Assembly: GCF_003610995.1 (NCBI RefSeq)
Contig: NZ_CP032543.1
Coordinates: 6,014,001-6,078,000, forward strand
Reading direction: 5' to 3'
DNA from: Streptomyces griseus subsp. griseus
GTDB taxonomy: Bacteria; Actinomycetota; Actinomycetes; Streptomycetales; Streptomycetaceae
DNA length: 64,000 bases
Part shown: positions 53,833 through 60,793 of the stretch, in pieces
How the letters are laid out: every line of letters starts with the position of its first letter
Position numbering within the stretch: the first letter of the stretch is position 1
Position numbers and translations under genes: made by a program
Notes under the pieces: generated by a model
Seen by the model: the letters and a program-made list of their open reading frames with translations, nothing else
What the model was told of the DNA's origin: nothing
The model's database searches: none

Positions 53833-55398
53833 CTAGTCCAGCGAGAGGGGGTTCGGCTCCGCGTGCGGGGCGCACTCCGCGTCCCCGTCCGGTGTCGCCC
53901 CCGTCAGCAGGTAGCGCCGCAGATGGTCGTCCACGCAGGTGTTCCCGGCCCCGCCGATGCCGTGCGTCCCCGCGTCCCGCTCGGTCACGAGCACCGCGCC
54001 GCGCAGCCGCCGCTGAAGTTCCAGCGCCCCCTTGTACGGGGTCGCCGCATCGCGCTCCGCCGCCAGGATCAGCACCGGCGGCAGCTCGCCCCACCCGGTG
54101 GAGACGTCCAGCGGCTGCTGCCGGGGCGCGGGCCAGAAGGCGCACGGCAGGTTGGTGAAGGCGTTGTCCCAGGTCTGGAAGGGGGCGACGGTCGCGAGGT
54201 CGCTGTGGTCGCGGTCCCAGACCTCCCACTCCTCGGGCCATGGGGCGTCGTTGCACTCGATCGCGGTGTAGACGGCCCGCGCGTTCTCGTCCCCCTTGGC
54301 CGTGATCGCGCGCGGCGACATCTGGGTGATCAGCGGCTCCGGGTTCCCCCGGACGTACTCGGAGAGGGCGGTCGCCCGCATCGCCCAGTAGTCGTCGTAG
54401 TAACCGGCCTGGAGGAACGCCGCGTGGAACTGGCCGGGCCCCACCTTCCCGCCCGCCGGTTCGGCCGCGAGGCGGGTGCGCACGTCGTCGTAATGACGCT
54501 GCACGGCCTCGGGAGTGGTGCCGAGCCGGTAGACGTCGTCGTGCCTGGCGACCCAGCGCCGGAAGTCCTCCCAGCGGGACTCGAAGGCCAGCGACTGGTC
54601 GAGGTTGGAGCGGTACCAGATCTGCTCCGGGTCCGGGTCGACCGCGGAATCGAAGACCATACGGCGCACGCGTGAGGGAAAGAGGGTCGCGTACAAGGAA
54701 CCCAGATACGTGCCGTACGAGGCACCCATGAACGTCAGCCGCTCGTCCCCGAGCGCCGCCCGCACCACCTCCAGGTCACGCGCGTTGTTGAGCGAGGTGT
54801 AGTGGCGCAGGGCCTCGCCCGCGTGCTTCTCGCACCCCCGCGCGTACGCCCGCGCCTGCGCGATCCGCTGCTTCTTGTACGCGGCCGTGGGGTGCACGGG
54901 GGAGTCGGTGGGGCTCTGCGCGAAGGCCGCGGGGTCCTGGCAGGAGAGCGGGGCGGAGGCGCCGACACCGCGCGGGGCGTAGCCGACCATGTCGTACGCC
55001 TCGGCGATCTCCTTCCACTCGGACATCTCGCCCATCAGCGGGAAGGTGACGCTGGAGGCGCCGGGGCCGCCCGGGTTGTAGACGAGGGAGCCCTGCCGGC
55101 CGGCCGCATCGCCGGTGGCCAGGGCGCGGCTGACGGTGAGTTCGATGGTCCGGCCGTCGGGCTCCGCGTAGTCCAGGGGGACGCCGACGGTGCCGCACTC
55201 CAGGGTGTCCGGCAGCTGCTCCTCCTCCGGGCAGGCGCCGAAGGAGATCCCGGCGGCTGCCGCGCGGACCGCCGCCACCGTCGTACCGCGCTCCTCGGCG
55301 GAGGCCGGAGCGGGGCCGTCCGAGGCGGTGGCAGGGGCGGCCACCAGGGCGGACAGGACCAGGGAGCCGATCGTTGCGTACAGCGGTACTGCTCTCAC
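53833..55398 (-). CDS. Secreted S33 tripeptidyl aminopeptidase-like alpha/beta hydrolase
   Basis: 521 residues with a signal peptide ending near PATA-S (residue 26). The alpha/beta-hydrolase core starts at about 60; oxyanion block VYNPGGPGASS, then DMVGYAPRGVGAS, nucleophile Ser227 in MGASYGTYLG, Asp in LILAAERDAATPY and His in GTHGIGGAGNTCVD. The C-terminal region matches the TAP-like domain of streptomycete tripeptidyl aminopeptidases (SlpD/E, Tap). The GTG at 55398 has GAGG seven bases upstream; the frame stays open far upstream without similarity. It is on the same strand and 122 bp behind the Cys-rich membrane protein gene. Confidence 0.88.
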   Translation of the reverse strand: MRAVPLYATIGSLVLSALVAAPATASDGPAPASAEERGTTVAAVRAAAAGISFGACPEEEQLPDTLECGTVGVPLDYAEPDGRTIELTVSRALATGDAAGRQGSLVYNPGGPGASSVTFPLMGEMSEWKEIAEAYDMVGYAPRGVGASAPLSCQDPAAFAQSPTDSPVHPTAAYKKQRIAQARAYARGCEKHAGEALRHYTSLNNARDLEVVRAALGDERLTFMGASYGTYLGSLYATLFPSRVRRMVFDSAVDPDPEQIWYRSNLDQSLAFESRWEDFRRWVARHDDVYRLGTTPEAVQRHYDDVRTRLAAEPAGGKVGPGQFHAAFLQAGYYDDYWAMRATALSEYVRGNPEPLITQMSPRAITAKGDENARAVYTAIECNDAPWPEEWEVWDRDHSDLATVAPFQTWDNAFTNLPCAFWPAPRQQPLDVSTGWGELPPVLILAAERDAATPYKGALELQRRLRGAVLVTERDAGTHGIGGAGNTCVDDHLRRYLLTGATPDGDAECAPHAEPNPLSLD

Positions 55399-55520
55399 GG
55401 CGGGACCTCTCTGCGGATGCGGAGAGGGGATGGTGAGGTGCGGAGCGGGTGAAGTCCAGCACCGGGCCGGTGTGTTGCGGGGAACGACCCGGTTGCCGCA
55501 CTCCTTCTCCCGGTGGCGGT

Positions 55521-56552
55521 TCAGGAACTGCTGCCGCAGCTGGAGCCGCCACCACAACTGGAGCTTGACCCCCCGCAGCTGGACCCCGAGCTCCCGCAGC
55601 CGGACCCCGAACCGCCGCACCCGGACCCACCGCCGCAGCCGCCTCCGCCCCCGCAACTCGTATGCCCCGGGCCCGAGTCGGCGCACCACACCGTGGTCGC
55701 CGCGAAGCCCGACGCCGCCGCACCTCCCACGTACCCCGCCGACCGGCCCCCCGAGAAGCCGGACCGTGAGCGCCGGGTCCGCAGGTGCTGCTGGGCCGCC
55801 GCGATCAGCTGGGCCTGGAGCACCGGGTCGGGGAGAGCGTGCAGCCCCCGGTTGGCGACGAGGTACGGCGGGGTCAGCAGGTAGGCGTTCGCGGCTCGAA
55901 AGGCCTGCGCGGCCCGGCGGCCCGCCCGGGTGATCCGCTTGGCGCCGGACGCGGCCACGACGAGCCCGCTGATCCCGCCCAGCAGGATGCCGGGCAGCAC
56001 CTTCACGACGAAGGGGAACGGCATGTCGAACGGGGAGTCGTGTGCGATGTACTGAAGGACCGTGAGCAGGATGGAGAGCGGGAACGCGACGAAGCAGCTC
56101 ACCCCCTGGATCAGTCCCCACCGCCGCACGGGACGGCCGTCGGCGGGCCGGACGAGCAGCCCGCGCTGAGCCAGCCCGTCGCCGATCTCCTGCACCGCCG
56201 GGTGGTGCATCACCGCCTCCCGAACCGCGTGCAGAGCCCCGCTCGGTGAGGTCGACAGCGCCTGGAACACGGCGCGTTCGACCGGGTCGTTCGCCTGCGC
56301 ACGCTGTACGGAGATGATGCCGGGGCCGCCGATGAGGATCCGGCCGTCGGTGTACAGGGCGGTGAGCGCGGTGTCCGCGACCCTGGCCGGACCGCCGTTC
56401 AGGAACGCCGCCTCGTAGAGGTCGTGGACGGTGGCGGAGGGGTCGGCGGACGGGCGGCGGGACCGGGAGACGGCCACCTTCGCCAGGAGCAGCACGGTGG
56501 AGAGGGCGGCCACGAGGTTCATTACCAGGGCGAGCGTGTTCACGGCGGTCAC
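55521..56552 (-). CDS. TIGR04222-type membrane protein with Cys/Gly/Ser repeat tail, putative MNIO substrate
   Basis: 343 residues. An N-terminal hydrophobic helix (4-24) leads into a cytoplasmic TIGR04222-like region ([49 protein letters not shown]), two more helices (about 148-170 and 180-202), then a basic helical segment. The last 54 residues are nearly pure Gly, Ser and Cys, with cysteines at 290, 300, 306, 312, 319, 326, 333 and 339. The GTG at 56552 overlaps the stop of the DUF692 gene (GTGA). Coupling to an MNIO-type enzyme, whose known substrates are Cys-containing peptides, suggests the tail is post-translationally modified; this is inference. Confidence 0.85.
55524..55691 (-). repeat. 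Region coding the eight-cysteine Gly/Ser tail
   Basis: Encodes residues 288-343 of the TIGR04222-type protein. Seven cysteines recur every six or seven residues, each followed by Gly ([44 protein letters not shown]). The DNA shows imperfect repetition of a roughly 18-21 bp unit. Confidence 0.9.
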
Positions 56553-57874
56553 TTCCCCGCGAGGACGGCACGGGCCGCCCGGACGATACGGGTGGTCCGG
56601 CTCGGTGGCCGGGGCCCGGAGCGGTCCTCCCACCAGTGCGTCAGCCTGCGCTGAGCCACGGGGTCGGGAAGGCCGCCCGAGACCAGGATCCGCTCCACGA
56701 AACCGAGGGCGTCGCGCCGGTAACCGGCGCTCATCGGGCGGCCCTCGGCGTAGTCGAGGAACGCGGCGCGGTAGCCGTCGCCGAGGATCTCCGGCAGCTC
56801 GGGCGCCACCTTCGCGACGACATCGGCGCGCTTGGCGGCCAGCGCCCGGCTCTGCACCCGCAGCCGCCGGTGGTCGAAGCCCTCGGGCGCCGGGGTGCCC
56901 GCGACGAGCGCGGAGAGCAGTACGGTCTGGGCGACGGCGGTACGGTCGCGGGCTCCGGGGGCGGCGGTGGGCGCCGAGGGCGTCTCCGTACGAGGGGCGG
57001 CTTCGCACGCCAGGGACGTCGCCGTGCGGGGGACGGCCCGGCGTGAGCCGGTCGCCGCGGACCGCAGCGTCTCCCGGATCGTGTCCAGCTCGCCCGCCAG
57101 CTCCGCGCCGGGCGGGAAGGCGTCGTCGCGCTCCAGCAGCACGCCCGGCGGGTCGACCCGCGAGCGCAGCTCGGCCAGTACGTCGAGGACCGGGGCGGTC
57201 ACCGGGTGGGCGTGCGTGTCGTGCCAGACGCCGTCCTTCTCGACCCCGCCCGCCACATGGACGTACGCGATGGCCTCCACCGGCAGCTCGTCCAGCGCCT
57301 TCGCCGGGTCCTGGCCGAGGTTGACGTGGTTGGTGTGCAGGTTGGCCACGTCGATCAGCAGCCGCACGCCGGTCCGGTCGACCAGCTCCGCCAGGAACTG
57401 CCCCTCGGTCAGCTCCTCGTCCGGCCAGGAGACCAGCGCCGCGATGTTCTCCAGGGCCAGCGGCACGGGCAGCGAGTCCTGGGCGATGCGCACGTTCTCG
57501 CAGAGCACCTCCAGCGCGTCCCAGGTGCGCGGTACGGGCAGCAGGTGGCCCGCCTCCAGCCGCGCGGACGCGGTGAGCGGCCCCCCGGCCCGTACGAACG
57601 CGATGTGCTCGGTCACCAGCGGTGTACCCAGCAGCTCGGCCCGCGCCGCCAGCCCCGCGAGCCGCCCGGCGTCCGGGCGGTCCGCGCCGCCCAGGCCGAG
57701 CGAGACGCCGTGCGGGACGACTGTCACCCCCCGTTCCCGCAGGCGCACTAGGGAGTCCGGGAGGTGGTCGGCGCAGAGGTTCTCCGCCACCGCCTCCACC
57801 CAGTCGATCCCCGTGAGCGCCTCCACCTCGGCCGCGATCTCCGGCCGCCAGCCGATCCCGATGCCCAGCTTCAT
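56549..57874 (-). CDS. DUF692/MNIO-family multinuclear iron oxidase with fused C-terminal helical domain
   Basis: 441 residues. Residues 1-275 form the DUF692 TIM barrel: [26 protein letters not shown] (H55), VTEHIAFV (H90), LENIAALV (E142), [12 protein letters not shown] (D175, N178, H180), YVHVAGG (H206), DTHAHPV (H221, H223) and LLERDD (E249), the expected iron ligands. After an Ala/Thr/Pro linker (about 280-310), residues 312-420 form a second domain ([29 protein letters not shown]) that resembles the DUF2063-like partners found beside other MNIO enzymes. Known relatives (MbnB, TglH, BufB) oxidise peptide cysteines. The ATG has GGAGGAGGGGGA upstream; its stop overlaps the Cys-rich protein gene. 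Confidence 0.9.
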
Positions 57875-58051
57875 GGTGTCCCCCTCCTCCGCTCCCTGTC
57901 CGGGTGATGGCCCCGGGAAGCGGTGCCCAACCCGAACAGGGGACGTTCAGAGGAGGATTTGAGGTTCCGGGCGGGCGGGTCTCGTTACGGCATCGGCTTG
58001 GAGGGCTGTCCTGCGGGAGCGGCTTCGGAGGCCGCGTCAGGGTGGAAGGCC

Positions 58052-58801
58052 CTACGGCAGCGGCGGCATCGTCGGCGGTACCGGGCGCGAGGTGAACGAC
58101 TGGTCGCCGGTCGGTGTCACCGGCACCGGAACCTGCGGCACCTGCCCGCCCTGCGGCATCGACGGGCCCGAGGGGCTGGCCGTGGACCCGCCGGCCGCCT
58201 CACGCGCCAGGGCGTCGAAGTCGACGAAGCCGGTGCCCTCCAGCATGGTGATGTGGTCCAGCACGGTCTGGTTCGCGTCGCTGGCGAGCTGCCGGATCAG
58301 GGTGTTGCGGGTGGTGTGCCGGACCTGGCCTATCAGCCCGAACACCTTGCCGTGCGCGGCCCGCAGGATGTTGGCGAACTTCCGCTCGTACTCGTCCCCG
58401 CTCGCCGCCGTCAGCTCCGCGAGCCACGCCCGCTGCTGCTCGGTCGGCTGGTTGGGCAGCTCCACCCCGAGCTTCGCGGCCACGTCCCGGGCCCGCCGGT
58501 CCAGGTCCGTGTGGCCGACCACCAGATGGTCCCCGGCCGCCTTCGTCGCCTCGCTGGGCGCCCGTTCGATCGCCTGCTGACCGGCGGGCAGCTCCCACAG
58601 CCCGGCGAGACGCACCTTGACCAGGAAGTCCCGGTCGGTCGCGGAGAGCGGGCCCCACTGGGTGGCGACGCTGGACGCGTTCAGGTTCGCCTCGCCGGTG
58701 CCCGAACGGTCCGCGTAGGACCAGACGGGGAAGGCGAGCGCGCCCACTGTGGCGACCAGTGCCGCGATGATGAGGGCCGTTCCGTTGATGCGTCGCAACA
58801 A
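58052..58801 (-). CDS. DUF4142 (ferritin-like) secreted or membrane-anchored protein
   Basis: 249 residues. An N-terminal hydrophobic helix (ALIIAALVATVGALAFPVWSYA) acts as signal or anchor, followed by the DUF4142 four-helix bundle (LSATDRDFLVKVRLAGLWELPAGQQAIER, HTDLDRRARDVAAKLGVELP, RQLASDANQTVLDHITMLE) and a Pro-rich C-terminus. The family is ferritin-like but lacks a proven activity. The TTG at 58801 is chosen because GGGAG lies five bases upstream; another TTG at 58858 has no such site. Confidence 0.78.
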   Translation of the reverse strand: MLRRINGTALIIAALVATVGALAFPVWSYADRSGTGEANLNASSVATQWGPLSATDRDFLVKVRLAGLWELPAGQQAIERAPSEATKAAGDHLVVGHTDLDRRARDVAAKLGVELPNQPTEQQRAWLAELTAASGDEYERKFANILRAAHGKVFGLIGQVRHTTRNTLIRQLASDANQTVLDHITMLEGTGFVDFDALAREAAGGSTASPSGPSMPQGGQVPQVPVPVTPTGDQSFTSRPVPPTMPPLP

Positions 58802-59029
58802 GGTGTCTCCCGGGACGAGGCGAGGCGTGACAGCGCCGGTCAGTCGATCAGGCGTCAATCAACCGCCGACCGGCTCGCCGCGCAGGCTACTTGTCGGTAA
58901 TGCCGGTGGGGCAGTATCGGGAGATACGTAGTCGGGCGCAGGAATACTCAGCCGCGGGCGGGCCGGTCCCGGCCTACGGGGGCGCCGCGCCGTGGAGGGC
59001 GGCCGGCGGATCTCCGAGGGGGCGTGCGT

Positions 59030-59797
59030 TCAGCGGCGGAGGCGTACGCCCGGGAGGGGACAGAACCGCCGGCCGCCCTCCACGGCGACGGTGGGCCCGG
59101 GGGCGATCTCCGTGAACCCCGCGTCGCGCACCACCGGCAGGCCGCTCGTGGTCAGCTCGCGCCAGCGCGCCGGGGTGGCCGTGGCCACGGAGAGCGGGAA
59201 CCCCGCCTCGCGCCAGGCCTTGCGCTCGGTCTGTGACAGCTCCCACCAGGCGAGCTGGGCGCCGTGGCCGACCTGGGCCATCGTCTTGCCCGCCGACATC
59301 TCCAGCTCCGGGTTGAGCCACAGCACCGGCCCCTCCGGGTCGGGGGCGGCGGGCGGCTCGGGGTCGTCCAGGTCGGTGCCCGACACCTGGAGCTTGGCCA
59401 GCTCCTTGGGCCAGCCGTCCAGCGGGATCGGCGGGTAGACCCGGACCTCCGCGCCGGTGCCCGTCACCGTGATCCCGGGCAGCGCGGCCGCCTTGCGCCA
59501 CTCCGCCCCACGTGCCCGGCGCACCACCTTGCGGATCCGGGCGTCCTCCCAGTCCCGCATCGCCCCCGCCCACTCGCCCTCGCCGAGGGACCGCTCGTCG
59601 GACAGGATCGTCAGCACCGCGCGGGCGGCGGTGCGCAGGGCGTCCGTACGGGCGGGCGGGGCCGTCTTCTCCAGGTGCACCACGAGCGGGAGCACGTACT
59701 GCGGGGCTTCGTCCCGGTCGGTCGGACCGTTGTGGAAGGGGCTCGGGGAGACAGTGGTCCGGGAGGAGGTGTTCTGGGAGGTGTCGTCGCTGCTCAC
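59030..59797 (-). CDS. Peptidyl-tRNA hydrolase (PTH2 family)
   Basis: 255 residues. An N-terminal Ser/Thr-rich segment (about 35 residues) is followed by a helical insertion and the PTH2 fold. The key motif is ELEMSAGKTMAQVGHGAQLAWW, which matches the PTH2 GKxAAQxxHA block carrying the catalytic residues. PTH2 enzymes cleave peptidyl-tRNA; bacterial members are less common than the Pth1 type and this one is longer than the archaeal 115-residue form. The GTG at 59797 is where homology and ribosome spacing agree; the frame remains open upstream. It is divergent from the AIM24 gene. Confidence 0.82.
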   Translation of the reverse strand: MSSDDTSQNTSSRTTVSPSPFHNGPTDRDEAPQYVLPLVVHLEKTAPPARTDALRTAARAVLTILSDERSLGEGEWAGAMRDWEDARIRKVVRRARGAEWRKAAALPGITVTGTGAEVRVYPPIPLDGWPKELAKLQVSGTDLDDPEPPAAPDPEGPVLWLNPELEMSAGKTMAQVGHGAQLAWWELSQTERKAWREAGFPLSVATATPARWRELTTSGLPVVRDAGFTEIAPGPTVAVEGGRRFCPLPGVRLRR

Positions 59798-60610: not shown

Positions 60611-60793
60611 ATGGACGCCGCCGCGTACTGCGAAACGCCCGCACCCGTGACCACGGAGGCGGACGCGGGCCCGCCGTTCGCGGAGTGCGTGCTCTGCCGC
60701 GAGCCGACCGAGTACCCGGAGTCGGCCAAGGGCGCCACGCTCTGCCCGGTCTGCGCCTGGCAGGAGGCGGGGCGCTCGGCCTGCTCCGGCTGA
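60611..60793 (+). CDS. Small zinc-ribbon protein
   Basis: 60 residues with two CxxC knuckles, CVLC and CPVC, separated by 18 residues (EPTEYPESAKGATL in between), which should bind one zinc. No ribosome site precedes the ATG, and a TACGCT hexamer lies only a few bases upstream, so the mRNA may be leaderless. An in-frame GTG six bases earlier is an alternative. Proteins of this kind are frequent in Streptomyces; function unknown. Confidence 0.65.
   Translation: MDAAAYCETPAPVTTEADAGPPFAECVLCREPTEYPESAKGATLCPVCAWQEAGRSACSG

Follow-up and report, generated by a model that had tools for sequence, protein, structure and literature searches.

The window analysed here, i.e. the whole stretch of 64,000 nucleotides from Streptomyces griseus subsp. 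griseus (GCF_003610995.1, NZ_CP032543.1, positions 6,014,001-6,078,000 of the forward strand), carries on its reverse strand the gene of an MNIO (DUF692) enzyme, P0002, overlapping with that of a TIGR04222 membrane protein, P0001, which ends in a tail of glycine, serine and cysteine. The association of the two families in Actinomycetota, with Ser/Gly-rich cysteine tails proposed as MNIO substrates, was described by Antoine et al. (2025, PMC12452194), so that the core pairing and the tail-as-substrate idea are already published. Three features, not met in the accessible part of that article, distinguish the present system from the published pairs and are offered here as new leads: a fused DUF2063-like domain, which is probably the partner of the enzyme; a tail which, by the charge rule, is probably cytoplasmic; and a Streptomyces clade that has the MNIO and no tail gene. 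The accessible parts of two other articles (PMC12710340 and PMC13174530) hold nothing further on the MNIO-TIGR04222 pairing. The main features of the locus are the following.

57874..56549, minus strand: gene of the MNIO protein P0002, 441 residues
57065..57865, minus strand: MNIO (DUF692, PF05114) catalytic domain, residues 4-270 of P0002
56552..56950, minus strand: C-terminal domain of the MNIO protein, DUF2063-like, presumed built-in partner, approximately residues 309-441
55521..56552, minus strand: gene of the TIGR04222 membrane protein P0001, 343 residues, GTG start; NCBIfam TIGR04222.1, 157.9 bits
56481..56537, minus strand: predicted transmembrane segment 1 of P0001, residues 6-24, hydropathy window 2.24
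56055..56111, minus strand: predicted transmembrane segment 2, residues 148-166, hydropathy window 2.05
55956..56012, minus strand: predicted transmembrane segment 3, residues 181-199, hydropathy window 2.11, followed by a K/R-rich stretch
55680..55688, minus strand: W-C-A motif before the low-complexity tail, residues 289-291; W-C in 81 of 87 distinct tails
55524..55685, minus strand: Gly/Ser/Cys tail, residues 290-343 of P0001, eight cysteines

The enzyme and its C-terminal domain

P0002 passes the PF05114 cut-off (254.7 bits vs 25, E 1.2e-75) and is the one MNIO match in the whole 7.2 Mb genome of S. griseus. The best Foldseek matches of its catalytic domain are TglH (8hci_B and 8hi7_B), the HvfB-like DUF692 protein 3bww and MbnB (7dz9_A). 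Nine residues, namely H55, H90, E142, D175, N178, H206, D219, H221 and E248, are invariant across 96 MNIO rows, a comparison that counts the window sequence twice; judging from the motif and from MbnB and TglH, they are presumably the iron ligands. Among the best 80 loci kept, the closest named ones include those of Streptomyces cyaneofuscatus, anulatus, globisporus and griseus. An earlier note on this DNA had observed that the MNIO stop and the TIGR04222 start overlap as GTGA, and the coordinates of both frames agree (stop TGA at 56551-56549, start GTG at 56552-56550).

Absent from that note is a C-terminal extension of about 170 residues in the MNIO protein. The domain that it contains is fused to the MNIO in 73 of 95 rows and is a separate open reading frame directly downstream in another 19, so that 92 of the 95 rows have it either within the MNIO protein or immediately after it. 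The window's own copy matches no Pfam family, PF09836 (DUF2063) included, at E up to 10; PF09836 is matched by 5 of 24 members of the domain group, one of which (L137:285-698) lies above the cut-off (27.7 bits vs 27.2) and is 52% identical to the window's domain (alignment A1). The AlphaFold model of the domain is all helical, with a mean pLDDT of 81.8; of the four hits of its profile among PDB sequences, all at E 0.44 or worse, none is convincing. Because the domain occurs both fused and split across the rows, and because one separate copy passes the DUF2063 cut-off, the missing partner of this MNIO is probably a DUF2063-like domain built into the enzyme.

If true, this would answer a published puzzle, for in the accessible part of PMC12452194 the TIGR04222 clusters contain no DUF2063 genes, at least 10% of them have a PME-type 2 partner, and many are apparently without a partner gene. 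According to the accessible part of another article, the active diiron state of HvfB requires HvfC, and HvfB fused artificially to HvfC is active (PMC13419390). That fusion was made to have a single chain for enzymology, which a natural MNIO-partner fusion would also provide (PMC13419390, as far as accessible). MovX is likewise a natural MNIO with an extra C-terminal domain possibly doing the partner's job, but its fused domain is RRE-type or winged-helix, whereas that of the window is DUF2063-like by sequence (PMC12452194 and PMC13419390, in their accessible parts).

Two loci are unusual. At L310 (Streptomyces altiplanensis) the partner domain is in a different frame from the MNIO and continues into the TIGR04222 frame, possibly owing to sequencing errors. 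At L129 (G059:C1:410000-419000) a second MNIO, with no partner domain detected, has its own TIGR04222 gene with a six-cysteine tail; the same genome, G059, also has the usual locus.

The cysteine tail, its linkage to MNIO and its side of the membrane

P0001 lies above the NCBIfam TIGR04222 (near_uncomplex) cut-off of 43 bits over residues 14-241; it has no Pfam match at E up to 1, hence no DUF2282, the bufferin precursor domain. The 54-residue Gly/Ser/Cys tail read by the earlier note is confirmed: residues 290-343 comprise 23 glycines, 18 serines and eight cysteines, the latter at 290, 300, 306, 312, 319, 326, 333 and 339, and the protein has one further cysteine at 153. Cys290 is part of the conserved W-C motif, which the note did not mention.

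For comparison, 87 distinct homologous tails were chosen for having at least five cysteines (5 to 11, commonest 8). Gaps of 4-9 residues between successive cysteines make up 454 of 538 (0.844), against a mean of 0.342 and a maximum of 0.426 in 1000 shuffles, while gaps of 0-2 residues amount to 0.022 in the tails and 0.331 in the shuffled set, i.e. close cysteines are avoided. Serine is spread over the codons AGC (.32), TCC (.33) and TCG (.23), so that simple copying of a DNA repeat does not account for the tail. In 18 close tail pairs the fraction of unchanged aligned cells is higher for Cys (0.918) than for Gly (0.851) or Ser (0.854), a modest excess. The regular spacing, the W-C motif and the linkage to MNIO described below make the tail cysteines look selected. 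A 912-residue open frame in another phase (window 53833-56571, minus strand) spans the tail region; it is the usual effect of high G+C and no evidence for a gene.

According to the accessible part of PMC12452194, a TIGR04222 gene follows the MNIO gene in more than 10% of cases; there are more than 3,500 TIGR04222 proteins, more than a quarter of them without C-proximal cysteines, and 490 of 1,372 genomes have TIGR04222 but no MNIO. In the present survey of 81 Streptomyces genomes, from which 119 stretches were taken, TIGR04222 is matched in 72 and PF05114 in 78. MNIO loci were obtained from 77 of these 78 (G027, with a partial hit at a contig start, was left out), and three genomes contributed a second locus; of the unlinked TIGR04222 hits eleven were also left out, most being weak or fragments and two (E 1.6e-14 and 1.1e-8) having an internal stop, and L174 gave no row. 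A TIGR04222 protein with at least three tail cysteines is here called T+, its short-tailed paralogue T0, and either is counted when within 3 kb of the MNIO. On this basis 44 of 80 MNIO rows have T+, 26 only T0 and 10 neither. The T+ gene mostly overlaps or abuts the MNIO frame, the T0 gene lying further on.

The earlier note had suggested looking for co-occurrence of the two families and for conservation of the cysteine spacing. In addition to the constrained spacing, tails with at least five cysteines do track MNIO: they occur in 43 of 96 TIGR04222 rows in MNIO loci vs 1 of 38 elsewhere (134 rows; Fisher p 3.8e-7, for rows which are not independent, the species being related). The sole unlinked case, with five cysteines, is found in a genome that has an MNIO (G005), and 3-4 tail cysteines occur in 6 of the 38 unlinked rows; the cysteine-rich protein is thus not common without MNIO, a situation that the note had named as speaking against its proposal. 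Outside Streptomyces, nine of ten MNIO-linked TIGR04222 proteins have 3-7 tail cysteines, one tail being unread, and among eight such proteins in genomes without an MNIO match six have 0-2, one has three and one has four. A four-cysteine tail with no MNIO found occurs in G265, on a short contig. A phylum sample of 119 genomes, with TIGR04222 above cut-off in five and PF05114 in eight, was too sparse for a linkage test.

The side of the membrane on which the tail lies was assessed with a positive-inside test, scored only on the T+ proteins with exactly three hydrophobic segments (36 of 57). Their mean number of lysines plus arginines is 0.03 before segment 1, 3.33 after it, 3.56 before segment 2, 0.92 in the loop between segments 2 and 3, and 4.50 after segment 3. 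An N-out, C-in orientation is favoured in 35 of the 36, in that K/R are more numerous after segment 3 than in the preceding loop, and the C-in side is richer in K/R in 42 of 42 T0 proteins with three segments. By the charge rule the tail is therefore probably cytoplasmic, whereas the accessible part of PMC12452194 places such tails in the periplasm. A cytoplasmic tail would lie on the same side as the expected working place of the MNIO. The modified surface that the earlier note pictured as facing outward is not supported, since the K/R distribution puts the tail inside the cell.

The system resembles those of bufferin (BufBC) and oxazolin (HvfBC) in combining an MNIO, a DUF2063-type partner (here a presumed one) and repeated, spaced cysteines. 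Yet in those systems the precursors have Sec signal peptides and the DUF2063-RRE partners are separate, whereas here there are a three-helix membrane protein and a fused, presumed partner domain of about 130 residues; residues 6-24 of P0001 resemble a transmembrane segment. MbnBC and TglHI are among the closest solved folds to the window's catalytic domain, but their precursors have neither a signal peptide nor a membrane domain and each enzyme has its partner as a protein apart, unlike in the window.

Fate of the tail and other candidate substrates

The mechanism that I consider most likely is the following. A self-partnered MNIO, with the DUF2063-like domain at its C-terminus, would act in the cytoplasm through a multinuclear iron centre and oxidise the spaced cysteines, or some of them, in the tail of the neighbouring TIGR04222 protein, which three helices would hold in the membrane so that the tail faces the cytoplasm. 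This would leave on the protein a series of cysteine-derived groups, for which 5-thiooxazole is the likeliest candidate purely by analogy with bufferin and oxazolin, and by the same analogy the modified tail might bind a soft metal, copper or a different one, at the membrane's inner face. Besides this, the enzyme would have another job or substrate, one candidate being a small cysteine-rich neighbour, listed below. MNIO enzymes install unusual, often copper-binding groups, and the characterised products named in the accessible part of the literature are peptides or exported precursors; if the tail is modified, its product would be kept for good at the inner membrane face. I give about even chances to the tail being modified by this MNIO in the cytoplasm, and less to any particular group or metal. 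The sequences themselves show the pairing, the fusion and fission of the extra domain, the cysteine spacing, the linkage and the tail-less clade, from which the partner role, the topology and the tail as a substrate are inferred. That the entire picture holds, namely a permanently membrane-tethered, cytoplasm-facing array of cysteine-derived metal-binding groups made by a single-chain MNIO-partner fusion, plus a second substrate (perhaps the small neighbour) that explains the tail-less clade, is on the whole unlikely.

Several observations weigh against the simple form of this reading, in which the MNIO serves the tail alone. When 95 MNIO domains are placed in a maximum-likelihood tree, 32 Streptomyces rows that lack T+ (26 with T0, 6 with none) group together beside T+ relatives, with a support of 87/94 for the fork uniting them, which is below the program's star. 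The tree was labelled with a profile trained on Streptomyces: L251 (G129) and L258 (G293) are labelled 'none' despite a TIGR04222 gene beside the MNIO, which in G293 has four tail cysteines; the T+ gene may lie off the contig in L137 and L138, and the 'none' of L074 is due to a T0 more than 3 kb away. A profile built on the C-terminal part of T+ matched none of 22 tail-less genomes and all of four controls, with 147 of 171-330 candidates scored per genome, the controls too; of the genomes searched, G078 is 78% complete and G022 is outside the 32-row group. The median ratio of nonsynonymous to synonymous substitution rates (dN/dS) of the MNIO is 0.119 in the tail-less and 0.196 in the T+ group (60 random pairs per group, dS 0.1-1.5), i.e. 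constraint is at least as strong without the tail. Since a large Streptomyces clade keeps a conserved MNIO without the tail protein, the enzyme has apparently been retained for another job too, and it seems to have a further substrate beyond the tail. The clade is a natural experiment, pointing to where such a substrate may be sought. As for the earlier claim that the tail is the MNIO substrate, the linkage, the constrained spacing and the invariant presumed ligands speak for it, but not for the tail as the only substrate, given the tail-less group.

Two neighbours in the window come into question, alongside the T0 proteins.

60611..60793, plus strand: small cysteine-rich protein with two CxxC pairs, ending in ACSG, 60 residues from the chosen ATG
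58052..58858, minus strand: DUF4142 protein, frequent MNIO neighbour (PF13628, E 4.6e-19)

The true substrate could lie wholly elsewhere, in T0, the DUF4142 protein, the small cysteine-rich protein or another one; the tail would then stay unmodified, as a metal binder or redox buffer acting through its thiols and encoded in the same operon. Besides the tail-less clade, this is suggested by T0 (e.g. L064:7400-8185, L089:7405-8211, L139:3926-4669), present in many MNIO loci, whose tail of about 15 residues is usually without cysteine and which has three cysteines kept in 94, 90 and 96% of 50 rows; however, T0 also occurs without an adjacent MNIO in G046 and G050, directly followed by a TAP hydrolase gene. 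The ACSG protein turned up in 13 of the 14 Streptomyces genomes with an MNIO that were searched vs none of three without MNIO (one of them 82% complete), and its gene lies on the MNIO strand in 16 of 18 tail-less loci, whereas beside T+ it is always on the opposite one (18 of 18). Within the stretches, it is near the MNIO in 18 of 44 T+ rows, 14 of 26 T0 rows and 4 of 8 'none' rows. Yet it was not found in any of the four MNIO-bearing genomes of other families searched, it has no Pfam match above cut-off, and its CxxC pairs look to me like a zinc ribbon, so that its gene may code for an ordinary zinc-ribbon-like protein and be there through synteny of the region; as a further MNIO substrate it is a speculative candidate. 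T0 and the DUF4142 protein are likewise no more than possible candidates. In favour of the tail remain its tracking of MNIO when rich in cysteine and the fact that the overlapping gene is the tail gene, and I regard a substrate wholly elsewhere as possible but doubtful.

A different objection concerns location: the tail might cross the membrane after its modification in the cytoplasm, or be inserted outward, so that the product would be extracytoplasmic. The published prediction (PMC12452194, accessible part) and the export of bufferin and oxazolin precursors, as described in the accessible literature, point that way; given the charge bias towards the C-in side in nearly all T+ and all T0 proteins scored, I consider it distinctly unlikely. 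Low-complexity drift in GC-rich DNA, where GGC, AGC and TGC are one change apart, combined with chance synteny of the operon, would account for a tail that is dominated by Gly and Ser and variable in length and cysteine number. This explanation is disfavoured, and very improbable, in view of a spacing far from that of shuffled tails, the widespread W-C motif, serines encoded by both AGC and TCN, and the linkage to MNIO.

The conserved cysteines of T0 lie in or at transmembrane segments, as a C-x3-C at segment 1 and one cysteine at segment 3. The DUF4142 gene of the window stands upstream of the MNIO; in tail-less loci such a gene is often downstream, at the position that T+ would have, and sometimes on both sides (L084, L085, L095, L096, L112). 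ACSG-type small proteins were seen at the window, L076, L078, L082, L101 and others.

Neighbouring genes and the upstream element

53833..55398, minus strand: TAP-like alpha/beta hydrolase, frequent downstream neighbour (PF08386, E 6.5e-28)
~59030-59797, minus strand: peptidyl-tRNA hydrolase PTH2-like gene, upstream (PF01981, 29.2 bits, cut-off 23)
57946..57964, minus strand: highly conserved upstream element CCTCAAAT-N4-CTCTGAA, a direct repeat with an 11-bp period that presumably serves to regulate the MNIO gene

The TAP-like hydrolase is probably outside the MNIO system, because its gene directly follows TIGR04222 genes without an adjacent MNIO as well (L139, L142). The PTH2-like gene makes the window similar to published clusters, with which it shares both families, the Ser/Gly/Cys tail and this gene upstream, there called adjamnio-II: Table 2 of PMC12452194, within its accessible part, gives 13 clusters of the type 'peptidyl-tRNA hydrolase (adjamnio-II) - MNIO - TIGR04222'. 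Over the MNIO leader, a match to the mraW family RF01746 reaches 27.5 bits vs a cut-off of 50; weak matches occur elsewhere in the genome (best 20.7 bits), and none is claimed here.

The upstream element is probably a regulator-binding site. In the S. griseus genome the short form has one exact site and two with 2 mismatches, the reversed control giving none. The extended form, GGAACCTCAAAT-N4-CTCTGAACGT, precedes 147 of 160 Streptomyces MNIO rows, if up to 4 mismatches are allowed, vs none of 15 others (rows from two collections, with some genomes in both), and the element lies 84-283 bases before the MNIO catalytic domain. In the first set it accompanies 67 of 69 fused vs 1 of 11 non-fused rows, and it is found in 32 of 33 tail-less fused rows.
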